DNA of 64,000 nt from positions 62,001 to 126,000 of the forward strand of contig NZ_JANZNR010000001.1 of assembly GCF_025153525.1 (NCBI RefSeq). Reading direction: 5' to 3'. This DNA comes from Psychroserpens sp. SPM9 (GTDB lineage: Bacteria > Bacteroidota > Bacteroidia > Flavobacteriales > Flavobacteriaceae). Positions 8,131 through 57,668 of the stretch are shown here, one piece after another. Made by a program: the position numbers and the translations under genes. Position 1 is the first letter of the stretch, and the number at the start of each line of letters is the position of its first letter. Under the pieces are notes generated by a model. That model saw nothing but the letters and a program-made list of their open reading frames with translations, searched no databases and was not told the origin of the DNA.

Positions 8131-8157
8131 GTTCTCTCTTGAAAGATGGTTCCATTT

Positions 8158-8238
8158 GCGTTAGCGATTGAAACGGCATCCTTTTTTATTTTTCTTAAAA
8201 AAGATATAGTGTAAAGCGCGACCCTTGCGGTAACGCCC
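8158..8238 (+). repeat. Structured dispersed element, copy A
   Basis: Outer stem GCGTTA (8158-8163) with TAACGC (8231-8236). Inner 8-bp hairpin CTTTTTTA (8181-8188) with TAAAAAAG (8196-8203). It shares GGCATCC, GATATAGTG and GCGCGACC with the other copies. Transcription orientation is unknown; it is drawn on the strand where the consensus reads forward, opposite to the flanking genes. Confidence 0.7.
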
Positions 8239-13983: not shown

Positions 13984-14102
13984 GCGTTCCCTAAAGGTCG
14001 GGCTTTCCGTTATATCTTTTTTACTTGTTCTCAATTCAAAATTGCTAAAAGCAATTTCACTCGAACGGATGTAAAAAAGGATGCCACATCAATCCCTAAC
14101 GC
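13984..14102 (-). repeat. Structured dispersed element, copy B
   Basis: Read on the minus strand it starts GCGTTAGGGATTGA, has GGCATCCTTTTTTAC pairing with GTAAAAAAGATATA, and ends in GGGAACGC. The loop is longer than in other copies and holds a further hairpin, AAATTGC with GCAATTT. The outer GCGTT/AACGC stem is kept. This copy alone runs in the direction of the neighbouring genes. Confidence 0.65.
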
Positions 14103-14153
14103 ACCTACTTGTTATGTTTTTTTTCTTAGTCAAAATTCATTTTCTTTCTACTA

Positions 14154-36069: not shown

Positions 36070-36116
36070 AAGTTGAAATGCTGATGCAAAAATAGATAAA
36101 TATTATGACGAAGTCC

Positions 36117-36213
36117 GCATTAGCGGTTGAAACGGCATCCTTTTGTTTTTTTAAACAAAAGATATAGTGTAAAACGCGGCGCGCCGGAGCGCTAGCGGAG
36201 GCGGGAAATGCCC
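36117..36213 (+). repeat. Structured dispersed element, copy D
   Basis: Outer stem is GCATT with AATGC, a compensated change from GCGTT/AACGC in the other copies. Inner stem is CTTTTGTTT with AAACAAAAG, again compensated. The 3' part is a GC-rich insertion (GGCGCGCCGGAGCGC). Located between rlmN and queA. Confidence 0.7.
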
Positions 36214-45576: not shown

Positions 45577-45610
45577 CAAAAAAAGACCATCAAATGATGG
45601 TCTTTTTTTT
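45577..45610. terminator. Bidirectional terminator
   Basis: AAAAGACCATCA and TGATGGTCTTTT form a 12-bp perfect stem with a 2-nt loop. It ends both the secreted-protein gene and the leftward Phe/Tyr operon, overlapping the last bases of the latter's 3' flank. Confidence 0.85.
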
Positions 45611-46691
45611 ATCCGTTTATAATCTTTTCCTGGTGATTAATAGATTCTTGGTGAATCGCTTTAAACATACGTAAGATAAACTCTTCACTCAGGCCTCTTT
45701 CATCGCCTTCCAAAACCATTTTTCCTAAAATCTCGTTCCATCGTTTACTTTGTAAAACTGCTACATTTTTCTGTTTTTTAAGAGCACCAATACCATCAGC
45801 AACTTTCATTCGCTTTCCTAATAATTCGATAATCTGGTTATCAACGATATCAATTTGAGCTCTTAAATTATTAAGTTCTGTATTGTATTCGGCTTCAGGA
45901 TCCGATTCTTTTCTAATTCTTAAATCCTCCATAATTTGTACCAATCGACTTGGTGTAACTTGTTGTGCAGCATCACTCCACGCGTTATCTGGATCTGTAT
46001 GGGTTTCAATCATCAATCCGTCGAAATTAAGATCTAAAGCGGTTTGTGACACATCAAAAATCATATCGCGTTTACCTGTGATATGTGATGGATCATTAAT
46101 GAGCGGCAAATCAGGAAACTTATTCTGAAATTCGATAGCCAGCTGCCATTCCGGAATGTTTCTGTATTTAGATTTTTCATAAGTTGAAAACCCTCTATGA
46201 ATAGCTCCTAAATTTTTAATTCCAGCCGTATACAAGCGTTCAATACCTCCAAGCCATAAGGCTAAATCTGGATTAACAGGATTTTTTACCAATACGGTTT
46301 TATCGGTTCCTTTTAAAGCATCGGCAAGTTCTTGCATTATAAAAGGACTAACTGTAGAGCGCGCTCCAATCCATAATAAATCGATATCATGCTCTAAAGC
46401 CAGTTCAACATGGTTTCTATTTGCAACTTCTGTCGCTGTTTTTAAACCTGTTTCTGATTTCACTTTTTGCAACCATTTTAAACCAAGCGCACCAACACCT
46501 TCAAAATTTCCTGGGCGTGTTCTTGGTTTCCAAATACCCGCTCTGTAATAATTGACATCGGTATCTTTTAGCTCATGAGCAATTTTTAATACTTGTTCTT
46601 CTGTTTCTGCACTGCATGGTCCTGCAATTACTAGTGGATGATCTAATTTTAAATCATCTAACCATGTTCTCATTTCTCTTTTGTTTTCCAT
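45609..46691 (-). CDS. Bifunctional DAHP synthase / chorismate mutase
   Basis: A 360-residue fusion. Residues ~1-260 are a KdsA/AroF-type 3-deoxy-7-phosphoheptulonate synthase (VIAGPCSAETEEQV, YRAGIWKPRTRPGNFEGVG, NDPSHITGKRD). Residues ~270-355 are an AroQ chorismate mutase (LNNLRAQIDIVDNQIIELLGKRMKVADGIGALKKQ). It thus catalyses the first shikimate step and the branch to prephenate. Last gene of the Phe/Tyr operon under the attenuator at 49525-49655, which fits feedback at the level of transcription. Confidence 0.95.
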   Translation of the reverse strand: MENKREMRTWLDDLKLDHPLVIAGPCSAETEEQVLKIAHELKDTDVNYYRAGIWKPRTRPGNFEGVGALGLKWLQKVKSETGLKTATEVANRNHVELALEHDIDLLWIGARSTVSPFIMQELADALKGTDKTVLVKNPVNPDLALWLGGIERLYTAGIKNLGAIHRGFSTYEKSKYRNIPEWQLAIEFQNKFPDLPLINDPSHITGKRDMIFDVSQTALDLNFDGLMIETHTDPDNAWSDAAQQVTPSRLVQIMEDLRIRKESDPEAEYNTELNNLRAQIDIVDNQIIELLGKRMKVADGIGALKKQKNVAVLQSKRWNEILGKMVLEGDERGLSEEFILRMFKAIHQESINHQEKIING

Positions 46692-46700
46692 AATTTTCGA

Positions 46701-47552
46701 TTAAGCAATTCCTTTTAAAATGTCTTTTATATGATTGGTGTTTTTCATTTCGTTATATATTTCTTCAAAATCGTCGGCTTCCATTAACGCTTTAAACTGT
46801 TTTAAATTAGTAATGTACTCGTCCAATGTTTCAATAACATTTATTCTATTTTGTTTAAAAATGGGTGTCCACATAGCTGGTGAACTCTTTGCCAAGCGGA
46901 CAGTGCTCTCAAAACCACTACCTGCCATGTCAAAAATATCGCGTTCATTTTTCTCTTTTTCAATAACTGTTTTCCCTAGCATAAACGAACTAATATGTGA
47001 CAAATGGGACACATAGGCAATATGTTTATCATGAGCTTCAGGATTCATATAACGAATACGCATTCCTAAGTCTGAAAACAATTGCAATGCTTTCTCCTGA
47101 AGTTTAAATGTTGTTTTTTCGACTTCGCAAATGATGTTTGTTTTCTTCTGAAACAAATCACGAATAGCAGCTTTTGGTCCAGAAAACTCAGTACCAGCAA
47201 TAGGATGAGTAGCCAAAAAATTACGACGTCGCTTATGCTTTTCAACGGCATTGCATACTGGTAATTTTGTTGAACCTACATCAATCACAAGCGTATCGTC
47301 TGAAATGGCATCTAATACTTTTGGAAGTTCTAAAACAGCTGTATCTACAGGAATAGAAAGCACCACTAAATCGGCCCTTTCTAAATCGGCATAGCTTGCC
47401 TTTTCATCAATAATTTTGAGTTGCAGGGCTTCCTCCAGATGGTTGTTGTTAGAATCTACCCCGAAAATTTTCGCATGGCTATTGAGCGCTTTAATGTCTA
47501 ATGCCAAACTGCCTCCTATCAACCCTACGCCTATGATGTATATGTTATTCAT
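46701..47552 (-). CDS. tyrA: Prephenate dehydrogenase
   Basis: A 283-residue NAD-dependent enzyme converting prephenate to 4-hydroxyphenylpyruvate for tyrosine synthesis. NAD motif IIGVGLIGGSLALDIK at the N-terminus, HPIAGTEFSGP with the catalytic His, and AGSGFESTVRLAKSSPAMW. No ACT domain is present, so tyrosine feedback must come from elsewhere, consistent with leader control. 9 bp before the DAHP synthase gene, 3 bp after the aminotransferase gene. Confidence 0.95.
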   Translation of the reverse strand: MNNIYIIGVGLIGGSLALDIKALNSHAKIFGVDSNNNHLEEALQLKIIDEKASYADLERADLVVLSIPVDTAVLELPKVLDAISDDTLVIDVGSTKLPVCNAVEKHKRRRNFLATHPIAGTEFSGPKAAIRDLFQKKTNIICEVEKTTFKLQEKALQLFSDLGMRIRYMNPEAHDKHIAYVSHLSHISSFMLGKTVIEKEKNERDIFDMAGSGFESTVRLAKSSPAMWTPIFKQNRINVIETLDEYITNLKQFKALMEADDFEEIYNEMKNTNHIKDILKGIA

Positions 47553-47555
47553 TCG

Positions 47556-48701
47556 TTATTTTAATCTTGCCAGTGCTTCCTCTAAATCTTCCTGAGGCGC
47601 ACATAGTGATATTCTTATGTATCGGTTTCCATTAGAACCAAAAATGGTGCCTGGTGTAATGAAAATGGACTTTTCCTTTAGTATTAAATCAATATATTCT
47701 TCGGCATCCAGATAGTCGGGTAATTTCGCCCAAACAAACAATCCTGTTGCCATTTTATCATAGGTGCAATTAAGTGCTTCGGCAATTTGCCAAACAATTT
47801 CTCGGCGTTGCTCGTACACGCTATTCAAACTTAAATACCATATATCTGAACAATTGAGAGCTTCAATCGCACCTTTTTGAATTCCTAGAAACATTCCAGA
47901 ATCCATATTACTTTTCACACGTAAAACCGCATTGATATAGTCGCCTTTTCCAACTAACATCCCAACACGCCAGCCTGCCATATTAAATGTTTTGCTCAGT
48001 GAATTGAGCTCCATACAAACCTCTGAAGCGCCTTTATATTTTAAAATACTTCTTGGGTATTTGTTTAAAATAAAACTATACGGATTATCATTTACAATTA
48101 AGATATTATTCCGTTTCGCAAAAGTGATTAGGTCTTCAAATAGTTTATTTGTTGCAGCAGCACCTGTTGGCATATGTGGATAATTTACCCACATTAATTT
48201 CACTTTTTCGAGACCTTGCTTTTCTAGTTCTATAAGATTTGGAAACCAGTTGTTGTCTTCGGTTAAATCGTAAAATCTCGGAACAGCACCAACCAAATTG
48301 GTGACCGATTTATACGTTGGATATCCCGGATTAGGAATAAGCACCTCATCACCTTCGTTTAAAAACGCCATTGAAATATGTAAAATCCCTTCCTTGCTTC
48401 CCATAAGTGGTAACACTTCGGTTAAAGGACTTAACGGCACATTGAAGTTTGTTTTATAAAACTGAGTGATAGCTTCTCTAAGCTCTGGAATACCTTGGTA
48501 ACTTTGATACTTATGCGCACCATCTTCGTTAAACGTCTCAACCAAAGCATTTAGAACACGCTCTGGCGGATTCAAATCTGGGCTCCCAATGCCTAAATTG
48601 ATTATGGGTTTACCCTGAGATTTGAGTATGCTTACTTCTCTTAACTTTTTAGAAAAGTAATATTCTTCAACGTTTTGTAATCGGTTCGCTAATGGTATCA
48701 T
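47556..48701 (-). CDS. PLP-dependent aminotransferase (probably aromatic)
   Basis: A 381-residue class I/II fold-type I aminotransferase. The PLP-binding Lys is in LNSLSKTFNMAGWRVG, with NPGYPTYKS and VNYPHMPTGA nearby. In this operon it most likely converts phenylpyruvate and hydroxyphenylpyruvate to Phe and Tyr, although annotation by similarity would read LL-diaminopimelate/alanine-type aminotransferase. It overlaps pheA by 4 bp (ATGA). Confidence 0.9.
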   Translation of the reverse strand: MIPLANRLQNVEEYYFSKKLREVSILKSQGKPIINLGIGSPDLNPPERVLNALVETFNEDGAHKYQSYQGIPELREAITQFYKTNFNVPLSPLTEVLPLMGSKEGILHISMAFLNEGDEVLIPNPGYPTYKSVTNLVGAVPRFYDLTEDNNWFPNLIELEKQGLEKVKLMWVNYPHMPTGAAATNKLFEDLITFAKRNNILIVNDNPYSFILNKYPRSILKYKGASEVCMELNSLSKTFNMAGWRVGMLVGKGDYINAVLRVKSNMDSGMFLGIQKGAIEALNCSDIWYLSLNSVYEQRREIVWQIAEALNCTYDKMATGLFVWAKLPDYLDAEEYIDLILKEKSIFITPGTIFGSNGNRYIRISLCAPQEDLEEALARLK

Positions 48702-49525
48702 TGTCTCGCGTTTTTATATTCTCCCAATACTTTAAAATCTTGAGCCATTATCATCATAATGGATTTAGCTTTTTCGAAATCTTTATAGCTTTCAAAAGTT
48801 AAATCTACAAAAAAGGCATACTTCCAAGGGGTTTCAATTTTCGGGAGTGATTGTATCTTCGTTAAATTTAACTTACAATCACTTAAAACATTCAAAATAG
48901 TCGCTAAACTTCCTCTTTTGTGGTCTAATTCAAATTTCACAGAAGCCTTATTGATTTGGTCTTCGGAAATTTCAGAATTTTTCGTCTTCACGATGACAAA
49001 TCGGGTTTCATTATGTTTAATGGTTTGGATACTTTCTGAAATAATATCGAGTTCAAACAATTGAGCCGCCAATCGGGACGCAATAGCCGCTATATGTTTG
49101 GTTTGATTTTTTTGGATACGTTGCGCGACTTCGGCTGTATCTTTATCTTCAATGAGTTTAATGTGCGGATACTGTTTAAAAAACGCTTTACATTGCAATA
49201 ATGCCATTGGATGCGAATACACTTCTTTAATATCACTGATTGTTTGATTAGGCAATGCCATTAGGTGGTGCTGAATATCTAAATAATGTTCTCCAACAAT
49301 ATGTAAATTATGTGAATCGATTAATGCATAATTTGGAATAATAGAACCTGCAATCGAATTTTCTATTGCCATAATTGCAGCATCGGTTTGCCGTTCTAAA
49401 ATACTATCGACCACGCCATCAAATGTTAAACACTCCTGAACGCGAACCGTTTCATCAAAAAATTGCTGTGACACAATATGATGAAATGATCCTTTAACTC
49501 CTTGTATAGCGACTGATGTAATCAT
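48698..49525 (-). CDS. pheA: Prephenate dehydratase
   Basis: A 275-residue monofunctional enzyme producing phenylpyruvate. Residues ~1-180 form the catalytic domain (AIQGVKGSFHH, ENSIAGSI, HNETRFVIV with the Thr-Arg-Phe motif). Residues ~190-270 form an ACT domain for Phe feedback (KRGSLATILNVLSDCKLNLTKIQSLPK). First structural gene of the operon; its ATG directly follows the terminator T-tract of the leader attenuator. Confidence 0.95.
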   Translation of the reverse strand: MITSVAIQGVKGSFHHIVSQQFFDETVRVQECLTFDGVVDSILERQTDAAIMAIENSIAGSIIPNYALIDSHNLHIVGEHYLDIQHHLMALPNQTISDIKEVYSHPMALLQCKAFFKQYPHIKLIEDKDTAEVAQRIQKNQTKHIAAIASRLAAQLFELDIISESIQTIKHNETRFVIVKTKNSEISEDQINKASVKFELDHKRGSLATILNVLSDCKLNLTKIQSLPKIETPWKYAFFVDLTFESYKDFEKAKSIMMIMAQDFKVLGEYKNARQ

Positions 49526-49554
49526 AAAAAAAGTCCCGATTTACATCGAGACTT
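49525..49554 (-). terminator. Attenuator terminator before pheA
   Basis: AAGTCTCGAT and ATCGGGACTT (one G-T pair) with loop GTAA, then seven T. GTCTC in its 5' arm can alternatively pair with GAGAC in the leader peptide coding region, giving an antiterminator. Confidence 0.8.
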
Positions 49555-49577
49555 ATATTAAATTTATAGTTTATAAA

Positions 49578-49655
49578 TTATACATACAACGTCTCTCTCT
49601 TTTCGCTAAAAAAGAAATAAAACCAGTTGTAATATGTATGATTTAATGTGTTCAT
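49578..49655 (-). CDS. Aromatic-rich leader peptide of the Phe/Tyr operon
   Basis: A 25-codon ORF on the minus strand: starts MNTLNHT, continues YYNWFYFFF (residues 8-16) and ends SEKRETLYV. Eight of the nine residues at 8-16 are Tyr, Trp or Phe. It is followed 23 bp later by the terminator before pheA. Codons Arg20-Leu23 contain GAGACGTT, which can pair with AAGTCTC of the terminator. This is the layout of ribosome-mediated attenuation: stalling at the aromatic codons would free GAGAC to block the terminator; full translation would hide it. Too short for ORF callers. Confidence 0.82.
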   Translation of the reverse strand: MNTLNHTYYNWFYFFFSEKRETLYV

Positions 49656-49781
49656 ATCCTTAAATATGCTGCTAATGTAATTATTATTTTAAGAAATCAA
49701 AATTGTTATAACAAATTTTTGCTTATTTCGTTTCAGTTTTAAAGAATTCCTAAATTAAAGTAGCGCATTAGTAATAATTAC

Positions 49782-49789
49782 TATTTTTG
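49782..49789 (+). promoter_or_regulatory. -7 box for gldA
   Basis: TATTTTTG fits TAnnTTTG and lies 17 bp before the gldA start codon. Confidence 0.5.
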
Positions 49790-49806
49790 AGTAAATAAAT
49801 TGATAT

Positions 49807-50700
49807 ATGTCTATTGAGGTTGAAAACATATCTAAAATCTACGGCAAACAGAAAGCTTTAGATCAAATTTCCTTTTCGGTTAGCAAAGGTGAAATTGTCG
49901 GATTCTTAGGTCCGAATGGTGCAGGAAAATCCACACTAATGAAAATCCTTACCACTTATATCAAAGCTACAGAAGGTCTTGCTAAAGTAGACGGTCATGA
50001 CGTTGAAAACTATAAAAAAGAAGTTCAAAGTACGATTGGTTACTTACCAGAACACAACCCTTTGTACCTCGACATGTTTGTTAGAGAATATCTCGACTTT
50101 AATGCTCGTATTTACAACACGCCTCAATCGAGAATCAATGAGGTGATTGATCTTACCGGACTTACACCCGAATCTCACAAAAAAATTGGGCAATTATCAA
50201 AAGGTTACAGGCAGCGTGTTGGACTAGCCAATGCCTTATTACATAATCCATCGGTATTAATATTAGATGAACCTACAACAGGATTAGATCCAAATCAATT
50301 GGTGGATATCAGACATTTAATTAAAACCATTGGACAAGATAAAACCGTATTTCTATCGACGCATATTATGCAGGAGGTTGAAGCGATTTGCGATCGTGTT
50401 ATCATTATTAATAAAGGTCAAATTGTAGCCGATAAAAAGCTAAAAGACTTAAGAGATGATAAAGAGCAAACAGTTATTGTCGAATTTGACTATCGTGTTG
50501 AAGATGCATTTTTACTAAAACTACCTCACGCCAAAACTGTTAAAAACACCCATGATTTTAGTTATGAAATCACCTTTTCTACAGGTGAAGATATGCGATC
50601 TCATGTATTTGATTTCGCCCATGATAATCAGTTAAAAATACTTCAGCTCAATCAAAAAAATGCCAGCTTAGAAAGTCTGTTTAGAGAGTTAACCTCGTAA
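49807..50700 (+). CDS. gldA: Gliding motility ABC transporter ATPase GldA
   Basis: A 297-residue ABC ATPase. Walker A GPNGAGKST, signature LSKGYRQRVGLA, Walker B LILDEPTTGLDP and the H-loop STHIMQ are intact. The C-terminal ~80 residues (from ~218) form the DUF4162-like regulatory extension of GldA. The membrane partner genes gldF and gldG are not in the window. Divergent from the pheA leader and convergent with the GIN-domain gene. Confidence 0.92.
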   Translation: MSIEVENISKIYGKQKALDQISFSVSKGEIVGFLGPNGAGKSTLMKILTTYIKATEGLAKVDGHDVENYKKEVQSTIGYLPEHNPLYLDMFVREYLDFNARIYNTPQSRINEVIDLTGLTPESHKKIGQLSKGYRQRVGLANALLHNPSVLILDEPTTGLDPNQLVDIRHLIKTIGQDKTVFLSTHIMQEVEAICDRVIIINKGQIVADKKLKDLRDDKEQTVIVEFDYRVEDAFLLKLPHAKTVKNTHDFSYEITFSTGEDMRSHVFDFAHDNQLKILQLNQKNASLESLFRELTS

Positions 50701-53811: not shown

Positions 53812-56496
53812 TTAAGTTTCTGCAAGATTTGGGTTAAGCCATTTTTGGGCTGTATCTTCATCTATAGCTCTTCGCTTTGCATAGTCTTTTAATTGGTCTT
53901 CAGTAATTTTTCCTAAGCCGAAATATTTAGCTTCCGGGTTTCCAAAATAGTAACCACTTACCGATGCTGCTGGCCACATCGCCAGACTTTCAGTTAATTG
54001 TACACCTATATGCTTTTCGACATCTAATAGCTGCCACAAGGTGCGTTTTTCTAAATGGTCTGGACAAGCAGGATAACCAGGAGCAGGACGAATGCCCTTA
54101 TAGCTTTCGTTAATTAAATCGTCATTTGTTAAGTCTTCATTTTTAGCATAAGCCCAATGCTTTGTTCGTACTTGTTTGTGTAAATATTCGGCAAACGCTT
54201 CCGCTAAACGATCGGCTAATGCTTTAATCATAATCGCATTATAATCGTCATTATCGGCTTCAAACTGCTCTGCTAACTCTTGAGTACCAAAACCAGTAGT
54301 CACACAAAAAGCTCCGATGTAGTCTTGAATTCCGGAGTCTTTTGGTGCAATAAAATCACTTAAGGCATAATTGGGAATACCGTCTCTTTTCTTTAATTGC
54401 TGACGAAGCGTAAGAAAGGTCGCCTGAACATCTTGTTTGTCATCATACACTTCAATATCATCATCATTCACTGTATTAGCAGGAAATAACCCAAACACCG
54501 CTTTGGCTTTTAACAGTTTTTCATCAAAAATGCGTTTTAATAAGAACTGAGCATCTTTGAATAAGTCTTGAGCCTGAACACCAACAATATCATCTTTTAA
54601 AATGTCTGGATATTTTCCGTGGAGATCCCAACTTCTAAAAAACGGACTCCAATCGATGAAGGCTTCTAATTCTCGAATATCAAATTTGTCAATCACCTGA
54701 ATGCCTAATTGCTCAGGTTTTATAATTTCAGAAGTCGCCCAGTCGATTTGAAATTTATTCGTTCTGGCCGCTTCGATAGACCTGTATTCTTTACGTTTTC
54801 CTCGTGTTAAAAATTGCTCTCGAAACTTATCATACTCTTCCCTAATTTGTGCTTTATAAACACTATTATCTTTTTGAAGCAAATTTCCAACTACAGTTAC
54901 AGCTCTAGAAGCATCATTGATATGCACTACAGTATGATCGTAATTTGGTGCAATTTTTACAGAGGTGTGTGCTTTAGATGTAGTGGCACCTCCAATGATT
55001 AACGGAATGGTTAAATTTTCCTTTTTCATCGCTTTTGAAAGATATACCATCTCATCAAGCGATGGTGTTATCAAACCACTTAAACCAATCACATCAACCT
55101 GTTCTTTGACGGCTGCTTCTATAATTTTTTCTGGCGGAACCATCACTCCTAAATCGATGATTTCATAGTTATTACATCCTAAAACGACACTAACGATGTT
55201 TTTTCCGATATCATGTACATCGCCTTTTACCGTTGCCATTAAAATTTTACCTGCAAACTCTTGTTTTCCGTCTTTTTCAGCTTCAATAAAAGGCTGTAAA
55301 TAAGCCACTGCTTTTTTCATCACACGTGCCGATTTGACTACTTGAGGTAAGAACATTTTTCCGCTTCCGAAGAGATCACCAACGACATTCATTCCAATCA
55401 TAAGATGGCCTTCAATAACCTCAATTGGCTTTTCAGATGCTTTACGAGCCTCTTCAACATCTTCAATAATAAAAGTATCAATCCCTTTAACAAGGCTGTG
55501 TGTAATTCGGTCTTGTAAAGCTTCGTTTCGCCATTCTAAAACCTTAGCGTTATCCTCTTTTTTATTGCCTTTTACGGTTTCAGCAAAGTCTAAAAGGCGT
55601 TCGGTAGCATCATCTCGTCTGTCGAACAAGACATCTTCGACATGTTCTAATAAATCCTTCGGAATTTCATCGTAGACTTCCAGCATCGTCGGATTTACAA
55701 TGCCGAGATTCATGCCGTGTTGAATGGCATGATACAAAAATGCAGAGTTAATCGCTTCACGAACTGTGGTGTTTCCTCGAAATGAAAAAGACACATTACT
55801 AACACCGCCAGAAACATTAGCATAAGGCAAATGTTCGCGAATCCATTTCGTAGCCCTAAAAAAGTCCAAGGCATTTAAGCGATGTTCATCCATCCCAGTA
55901 GCCACAGGAAAAATATTGGGATCAAAAATGATATCCTGAGGTGGAAAGCCTACATGATCAACCAACAGCTTATACGAACGCTCGCAAATTTCAATTCTGC
56001 GTTCATAGGTATCGGCTTGACCAACCTCATCAAAAGCCATAACAATCACTGCAGCACCATAGCGTTTAACGAGTTTTGCCTGACGTATAAATTCGGTTTC
56101 GCCTTCTTTTAAACTAATTGAATTAACAACACATTTACCTTGAGCAACCTGAAGTCCGGCTTCAATAATTTCCCATTTAGAGCTATCAATCATTAATGGA
56201 ATACGAGCAATATCAGGCTCAGAAGCAATCAGATTTAAGAATTTAACCATGGCGTATTTACCATCGAGCATGCCTTCGTCCATATTGACATCAAGAATTT
56301 GTGCACCACCTTCAACCTGATCTCTGGCAACACTTAAGGCTTCGTCGTATTTTTCGTCTTTAATTAATCTTAAAAATTTGCGCGAACCTGTCACATTGGT
56401 GCGCTCACCTACATTGATAAAATTACTTTCTGGTGTTACCACTAAAGGTTCTAATCCAGATAAGGTTAAATATTTTTTACAGTCAGATTCTGCCAT
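53812..56496 (-). CDS. metH: Methionine synthase, C-terminal part (folate, cobalamin and activation domains)
   Basis: An 894-residue piece of split cobalamin-dependent methionine synthase. Residues ~1-300 are the pterin-binding (methyl-THF) domain ([17 protein letters not shown]). ~330-540 are the cap and B12-binding domains with [10 protein letters not shown] (His ligand of cobalt). ~560-890 are the SAM-dependent reactivation domain with [12 protein letters not shown]. The homocysteine domain is encoded separately and overlaps by one base (TAATG). Split metH is known in Flavobacteriaceae. Confidence 0.95.
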
Positions 56497-57497
56497 TATG
56501 CGTAAACTTTAGTTGATCGTGGTTGATAATTCTGAGCGACTTCGGCAATCGCTTTGATGTGCTCAGGATTGGTTCCACAGCAACCTCCAATAATATTAAT
56601 CAATCCGTCTTTAAGGTAATCTTCAATTAATTGCTGCATTTGTTTCGGACTTTGATCATACTCCCCAAAAGCATTAGGCAAACCAGCATTAGGATGCGCT
56701 GAAGTGTAAAAATCGGTTTCGTTAGACAAACGCTGTAAATAAGGTTTGAGTTGTTCGGCACCAAGTGCACAGTTAAAACCGACACTCAATAACGGCACAT
56801 GTGAAATAGACGTTAGAAAAGCTTCTACGGTTTGGCCAGACAATGTTCTTCCCGAAGCATCCGTAATCGTTCCTGACACCATAATTGGAATATCTATTTG
56901 ACGTTCTTCTTTAACTTCTTCGATTGCAAACAAGGCTGCTTTAGCATTAAGCGTATCAAATATGGTTTCTACTAAAAGCACATCAACGCCGCCATCAATT
57001 AGAGCTTCAACTTGTTGTTTGTAAGCGATGCGTAATTCTTCAAACGTAATGGCTCTGTACTCGGGTTTATTGACATCGGGAGACATACTTGCCGTTTTGT
57101 TGGTTGGGCCAATACTACCAGCAACAAATCGAGGTTGATTTGGTGTTGCTTTTGTAAATTCTTCAGCTACTTGTTTGGCAATTTTTGCAGATTCGTAATT
57201 GAGCTCATAGACCAAATCTTCCATGTTATAATCTGCCATTGCGATTGTGGTTCCTGAAAAGGTATTGGTCTCGACAATATCGGCTCCAGCTTCAAAATAA
57301 AGCCGGTGCACATCAGCGATAGCCTGAGGTTGTGTCAAAGACAATAAATCGTTATTCCCTTTAAGAGAGGTTGGATAGTCCTTAAAGCGTTCGCCTCTAA
57401 AATCTTCTTCAGAAAATTTATAGCGCTGCAACATGGTGCCCATGGCGCCATCTAGGACTAAAATACGTTGTTGTAAACTTTGTAATAAATCTGACAT
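56496..57497 (-). CDS. metH: Methionine synthase, N-terminal homocysteine S-methyltransferase part
   Basis: A 333-residue barrel that binds homocysteine through zinc. Ligands are Cys in [11 protein letters not shown] and the CysCys in [13 protein letters not shown]. The N-terminal [15 protein letters not shown] is standard. Needs the downstream 894-residue protein for folate and cobalamin. It is directly under the SAM-I riboswitch. Confidence 0.95.
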
Positions 57498-57548: not shown

Positions 57549-57668
57549 TGTTTATCTGTCCTAAACTTCTGAATCTAATCAGATATAGGTAGAATTTAGC
57601 ACCTTCTTTAAAATAAAGGGTTGCTAAGGCTTCACTGGGTCTATTCCCTCTGCCTTTCATGATAACAA
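57549..57668 (-). ncRNA. SAM-I (S-box) riboswitch
   Basis: On the minus strand: P1 strand GTTATC, then AAAGGCAGAGGGA, GAAGCCTTAGCAACC, AAGGTGCTAAATTC and the closing GGACAGATAAAC, all in S-box order and spacing. It lies 52 bp before the metH start. No strong terminator follows: the 3' part holds a small AAGTAA/TTACTT hairpin, so control may act on translation or a weak structure. Confidence 0.9.

Follow-up and report, generated by a model that had tools for sequence, protein, structure and literature searches.

In the pheL-pheA attenuator of Enterobacteria, a short leader peptide precedes a terminator that lies before pheA, an alternative antiterminator can form, and the leader is usually described as using Phe codons only. 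Leader-peptide attenuation of this kind is best known from Proteobacteria and Actinobacteria. The trpL and hisL attenuators, with which the element described here appears to share mechanism and anatomy, differ from it in sensing a single amino acid. The nearest mixed leader, judging from the available text of its description (PMC11802643), is AroR of Corynebacterium glutamicum, which carries Phe-Tyr-Phe before a DAHP synthase operon (aroR-aroF) and is reported to respond to Phe, not to Tyr. It is likened to our element by description only: both are mixed leaders, but aroR belongs to another phylum and has a short run. Closer by taxonomy, structured 5' elements before pheA, hisG, and other genes were described in 2021 in Flavobacterium psychrophilum, conserved in other Flavobacteriaceae and matching no Rfam family, and the available text presents strong indications that amino-acid operons are attenuated by leader peptides (PMC9723704). 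The pheA element of that study and ours are very probably the same, since they share the family, the gene, and the lack of an Rfam match; in the available text no leader sequence, arms, or spread beyond the family are described. Long 5' UTRs of Bacteroides thetaiotaomicron contain short ORFs that resemble the leader peptides of attenuators, according to the available text of PMC7366714. A search of the literature on attenuation in Bacteroidetes, Bacteroidota, or Flavobacter, beyond whose reach lie many subscription papers, showed no account of the mixed aromatic leader or of its arms among the papers listed and the text available. The initial annotation, which knew of no described example in Flavobacteriaceae, is only partly borne out on novelty: a structured element 5' of pheA in this family is already in print, as far as the available text of PMC9723704 goes, whereas the anatomy, the covariation, the class-wide spread, and the constant mixture of Phe and Tyr are what the sequences compared here add to the available text.

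The element lies 5' of pheA in a stretch of 64,000 nt (the window). Sequence comparison and fold modelling argue strongly that it is a ribosome-mediated transcription attenuator controlling the operon pheA-aminotransferase-tyrA-DAHP synthase. Its features and the genes that follow are these:

49671..49702, minus strand: putative promoter, with TTTTG (49702-49698), an 18-nt spacer, and the -7 box TACATTAGC (49679-49671), read from the sequence.
49578..49655, minus strand: leader peptide ORF of 25 codons, MNTLNHTYYNWFYFFFSEKRETLYV, from sequence and translation, conserved and with frame-preserving indels.
49608..49634, minus strand: putative control codons 8-16, Tyr Tyr Asn Trp Phe Tyr Phe Phe Phe (YYNWFYFFF), from the translation and the stall model.
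49584..49595, minus strand: arm 2, GAGACGTTGTAT, overlapping codons 21-24, from GAG bias and covariation with arm 3.
49548..49595, minus strand: predicted antiterminator hairpin, arm 2 plus 49558-49548, from folding energy.
49531..49554, minus strand: intrinsic terminator hairpin AAGTCTCGATGTAAATCGGGACTT, with arm 3 (49554-49545), loop (49544-49541), and arm 4 (49540-49531), from a terminator search and from pairs kept in the alignment.
49526..49532, minus strand: terminator T-tract, abutting the pheA ATG at 49525, read from the sequence.
48698..49525, minus strand: pheA, prephenate dehydratase (Pfam PF00800, E 8.7e-56).
47556..48701, minus strand: class I/II aminotransferase gene (Pfam PF00155, E 3.2e-56), with a 4-nt overlap with pheA.
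46701..47552, minus strand: tyrA, prephenate dehydrogenase (NCBIfam NF006307 above cut-off; Pfam PF02153 and PF20463).
45609..46691, minus strand: DAHP synthase/chorismate mutase fusion gene (Pfam PF00793 and PF01817).

As in pheL-pheA, there is a short leader peptide, a terminator before pheA, and an alternative antiterminator; unlike in pheL, Tyr always and Trp sometimes accompany Phe in the leader, and the operon also includes tyrA and the DAHP synthase gene. The Rfam model of the former (RF01859, Phe_leader) aligns over its full length at the leader, weakly, with 19.6 bits (E 0.93), which does not reach the gathering threshold of 55 bits and is no better than the chance matches alongside.

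The 25-codon ORF, the run YYNWFYFFF at codons 8-16, and the T-tract ending at the pheA ATG had been given correctly, to the base, by the initial annotation. With both strands searched and nested starts taken as separate ORFs, the window contains 3231 ORFs of 8-45 codons; none but the leader ORF has 8 aromatic in 12 residues, and four others reach 7. Of 3000 shuffles of the leader region that keep its dinucleotides, 8 give 8 or more in 12. The codons of the end products are thus clustered at the window maximum, in an ORF whose indels keep the frame. Between this ORF and the first structural gene stands an intrinsic terminator: the hairpin at 49554-49531 is the sole terminator-like site in 49400-49900 (mean of 0.2 in shuffles). 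The fold of the leader region beats that of 200/200 shuffles (z -4.4), and the imperfect antiterminator hairpin at 49595-49548, which draws on the same 5' arm as the terminator, is predicted at -11.7 kcal/mol vs -3.9 in shuffles (z -4.5). The proposed pairing of GAGAC(G)TT (49595-49588) with AAGTCTC, with one bulged G, is present and extends further than first stated; codon choice, persistence in leaders with early stop codons, and covariation at distant loci all support it.

We propose the following sequence of events. Transcription would begin just 5' of the leader ORF, with a ribosome following RNA polymerase and translating the leader. Given ample charged Phe-, Tyr-, and Trp-tRNA, this ribosome would reach the stop codon and cover arm 2, arm 3 would pair with arm 4, and transcription would terminate before pheA. 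When a charged aromatic tRNA is scarce, it would stall within codons 8-16, and arm 2, left free, would pair with arm 3, such that no terminator would form and the operon would be read. A shortage of Phe, of Tyr, or of Trp should each suffice, since arm 2 would be freed wherever among the aromatic codons the ribosome stalls.

Close relatives were taken as the best 80 of 208 PheA relatives from one scan. The aromatic run, on whose conservation the initial annotation had staked its reading, is present together with arm 2 and the terminator at all 80 kept loci (73 by rule, 7 by eye). The automatic rule, a leader plus a terminator, selected 73 of the 80, which with the window makes 74 leaders. The seven loci accepted by eye comprise three with variant terminators (L017, L067, L071), two in which the element lies further upstream (L019, L022), one whose contig starts inside the leader (L029), and one whose leader lacks an ATG (L052). 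The two displaced elements belong to Gelidibacter; their attenuator hairpins begin 541 and 434 nt 5' of pheA (L019 and L022, respectively), so that there the element acts, if at all, at a distance. Gene order is shared as well, with PheA-aminotransferase-TyrA-DAHP synthase/chorismate mutase complete in 76 of the 80 relatives and partial in the other four. The PheA of the window is 92% identical to that of Psychroserpens algicola.

An alignment of 53 of the 74 leaders separates coding from structural constraint. From codon 8 onward, gaps in the ORF are only of 3 or 6 nt (40 and 2 of 42 gaps), and in the spacer 3' of the stop codon they are of 1 or 2 nt (45 and 25 of 70), counts that include shared gaps and are not of independent events. 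All ten pairs of the terminator remain standard pairs in 53/53. Among the aligned close relatives codons 14-16 almost always read FFF, and W is swapped for F or Y in several of the close relatives. The arm 2 motif is encoded in 70 of the 74 leaders: 69 have Glu at the arm, written GAG in 69/69, and the remaining one has GGG. Elsewhere GAG makes up 421 of 1548 Glu codons (27%) in pheA across the 80 loci and 4 of 23 in the rest of the leaders. The codon after this GAG varies, and its first two letters change only to ones preserving a standard or a G-U pair. Four leaders stop before arm 2, which is retained in all four. The exclusive use of GAG against 27% in pheA, together with this retention, argues that arm 2 is conserved as RNA, although both counts carry no probability, because the sequences are related. 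Arm 3 is almost invariant among these relatives, where it shows little covariation with arm 2, and the covariation signal consequently comes from distant loci; RNAalifold on the antiterminator alone recovers only the five outer pairs.

Upstream of the leader, relatives share a promoter-like motif, TTTG-N-TAC[AT]TTAGC. A -7 box of the TTAGC type occurs at 73 of the 74 leaders, and where the box is TAC[AT]TTAGC or a near variant, TTTG lies upstream in 69 of 73, with a spacing of 18 nt in 55 cases and of 13 nt in the other 14. The distance from the box to the leader ATG is 9-18 nt in 69 of 73 and 33-38 nt in four. The sigma A -7 consensus given for F. psychrophilum is TAnnTTTG, in the available text of PMC9723704. 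The putative leader promoter resembles this flavobacterial consensus and may be a promoter of the Bacteroidota type. The initial annotation had made its reading depend also on a transcript starting upstream of 49655, for which this motif is a candidate promoter.

The distant set consists of 119 further loci from the family, the class, and the phylum, taken only from the matches listed and including some near kin; PheA was located in 118, the exception being L122, where none was found. When at least 6 of 12 residues had to be aromatic and the terminator stem perfect, 59 of the 118 passed; 50 are without a leader (30 of them being L161-L190), and nine have leaders with bulged terminators, two of these (L142 and L144) having 5 aromatic in 12. 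The 59, the window, and six close relatives gave 66 loci for a pairing test. Arm 3 varies in this sample, with variants that include GTCTCGAT, AATCCTGAT, GTCCCGGC, GCCTCGT, and AGCCCTG, and arm 2 matches its changes (CGAGAC, GTCAGGATT, GCCGGG, ACGAGG, AGGGCT) although the encoded residues differ. The mean pairing score of arm 2 with arm 3 is 17.4, vs 13.0 (SD 0.34) when arms are re-dealt among loci, and is reached in 0 of 5000 permutations. Retaining one locus per arm-3 label gives 0 of 2000 in each of 20 draws; the label is the first six letters of the arm, and some of the 20 labels represent the same core shifted. Pairing of arm 2 with arm 3 also agrees at the nine loci with bulged terminators, which are supportive and not an unbiased test, since the choice of terminator at each was made by eye with the sequence in view. 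The covariation of GAGAC with GTCTC that had been suggested as a check is therefore found among distant loci and hardly at all among close ones. Between conservation and pairing, the original reading as a pheL-type attenuator is well supported by the sequences.

We then considered ranks. Leaders with at least 6 aromatic residues occur at 15 of 15 loci of the own family in the rank table, and at 31 of 49 class loci outside it (24 with strict terminators), a figure rising to 33 of 49 if the bulged ones with L142 and L144 are admitted by eye; no such leader is found at the remaining 16 of the 49. They occur at neither of two order loci, and at one of 33 phylum loci outside the class (L227). No leader was found in the family f13 (six loci) or in f2 (two loci). 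The own-family loci L112-L131 sit outside the rank table, and 19 of these 20 have the leader. A PheA protein search over the class found PheA in only 52 of 198 genomes, and Pfam PF00800 was then used over the phylum (172 of 198). With E<=0.01 as the limit, a model of the element, R1, matches in 310 of the 397 genomes from the family, a number that overstates certainty, as second and third matches in ten re-searched genomes, probably due to chance, have E values of 1.4e-4 to 8e-3. Twenty of the weaker listed matches (E 2e-12 to 6e-8) were fetched, and 19 precede pheA with an aromatic leader. The sequences thus indicate that the attenuator recurs across much of the class Bacteroidia, with co-varying arms. 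In L227 (genome G600, same phylum, other class), the leader MKNNYYTGFGFYYFYLTRPSCRD is accompanied by a terminator and by an arm 2 with a 5-nt match; this element could be of old origin or have been acquired by transfer. In L207 (family f25), a terminator-like hairpin lies 5' of pheA with no recognisable aromatic leader, and is possibly the remnant of an attenuator.

On balance we lean towards an ancient Bacteroidia attenuator that may have been inherited together with the pheA-tyrA-DAHP synthase operon and was kept while every one of its arms changed. One leader peptide would read charged Phe- and Tyr-tRNA, and in many lineages Trp-tRNA, responding to a shortage of any of them, in bacteria from which Shine-Dalgarno sequences are reported to be absent. 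The comparative evidence suggests that, in much of a Bacteroidota class, the synthesis of aromatic amino acids is under classical leader-peptide attenuation. It provides leaders that differ naturally both in the amino acids sensed and in their RNA arms, makes the integration of three aromatic tRNAs by one leader directly testable, and yields search rules for attenuators absent from Rfam.

The effect of a stalled ribosome was explored with a fold model that assumes a 12-nt ribosome mask and is evaluated before arm 4 is made. In the window, the modelled probability of the antiterminator is 0.34 without a ribosome and 0.987-0.993 with a stall at codons 8-16, and a ribosome at codon 18 onward covers arm 2; the freeing of arm 2 by a stall and its covering at the end of the leader are thus model predictions. 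Stalls at codons 6, 7, and 17 give 0.98-0.99 and those at codons 3-5 give 0.63-0.72; the model therefore defines where the run must end downstream, not where it begins upstream. Across loci, the predicted probability exceeds 0.5 upon stalling in 64 of 66, L141 and L159 staying below. A 1:2 protector hairpin folds in the window, and in 40 of the 66 loci no ribosome is needed for the antiterminator to be favoured; in the model this protector is weakly supported and not general, and the Phe and Lys/Glu codons may account for part of its pairs. The last aromatic codon is 8-21 nt from arm 2 (median 13, 66 loci), with 95% of spacings within 10-17 nt vs 73% in permuted pairs (SD 2.2 vs 7.2), a moderate tightening only and a clustering that is partly built in, because permuted arms also fall there in 73%. 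Within the 12-residue run, Phe and Tyr are both present in 66/66 leaders and Trp in 31/66. A general role specific to Trp was considered and is not upheld, as Trp is present in fewer than half of these.

What is sensed is where an alternative carries most weight. An attenuator of the same kind might respond only to starvation for Phe (or for Phe and Tyr), Trp and some of the Tyr codons being tolerated neighbours. The near-invariance of FFF, the presence of Trp in only 31 of the 66 leaders and its exchange for F or Y among close relatives, the separate WWW leader 5' of trpE in the same genome, and AroR, whose Phe-Tyr-Phe brings no Tyr response in the available text of PMC11802643, all fit such a narrower sensor. 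It accounts less well for Tyr within the run of every one of the 66 leaders, in an operon that includes tyrA, or for a modelled read-through that is the same for stalls at Tyr, Trp, or Phe. We regard it as possible, if unlikely, and retain a response to any of the three amino acids as the prediction of the model.

Other explanations dispense with attenuation by stalling. The stem in the window ends 5 nt 5' of the pheA start and its T-tract abuts the ATG, so the hairpin could hide the start codon and control translation of pheA instead of transcription. This is improbable given that the terminator ends 0 to 174 nt from pheA among the 74 leaders while stem and T-tract remain constant, and that in the two Gelidibacter loci it starts hundreds of nucleotides away. 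A T-box, a riboswitch, or a protein-bound leader would also produce a structured leader, which is nothing specific to them; the features conserved here are codons and arms, with frame-preserving indels, and an Rfam search at gathering thresholds found no family (T-box, riboswitch) matching the leader region, which makes another cis-element very improbable. Least credible of all is a chance ORF next to a terminator serving another gene. Short ORFs are indeed frequent in the window, but this one is conserved at 80/80 kept relatives, and the next large gene 5' of the leader (49807-50700, plus strand) is divergent, so no upstream transcript needs the terminator. Transcription attenuation by a translated aromatic leader thus remains our preferred reading.

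Other regulatory elements were noted in the window and in the genome. Flavo-1 RNA (RF01705) has three Rfam matches in the window, at 8153-8227 (plus strand), 13992-14110 (minus strand), and 36115-36185 (plus strand); the F. psychrophilum study could not clarify its function, according to the available text (PMC9723704). Elsewhere in the genome, a leader MNTNLNHTWWWNSRNNNFVN with WWW precedes trpE (L232, G000:C39, upstream of 76653), followed by a hairpin GGCTTGTC..GACAAGCC with a T-tract recognised by eye, likely a trp attenuator. Likewise, a leader MTFIQLHHHHFHTGTQAS with HHHHFH and a hairpin AAACCGTTTGAGTAAATCAAACGGTTT, also seen by eye, lie before hisG (L231, reverse strand, G000:C33) and are likely a his attenuator. 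These two leaders of the same genome add to the case for attenuation at pheA. A quick look 5' of ilvD, thrA, and hom in this genome gave no convincing attenuator. Finally, a SAM riboswitch (RF00162, 75 bits) lies at 57549-57668 of the window on the minus strand, just 5' of the minus-strand gene 56496-57497, which looks as if it may encode part of a methionine synthase.
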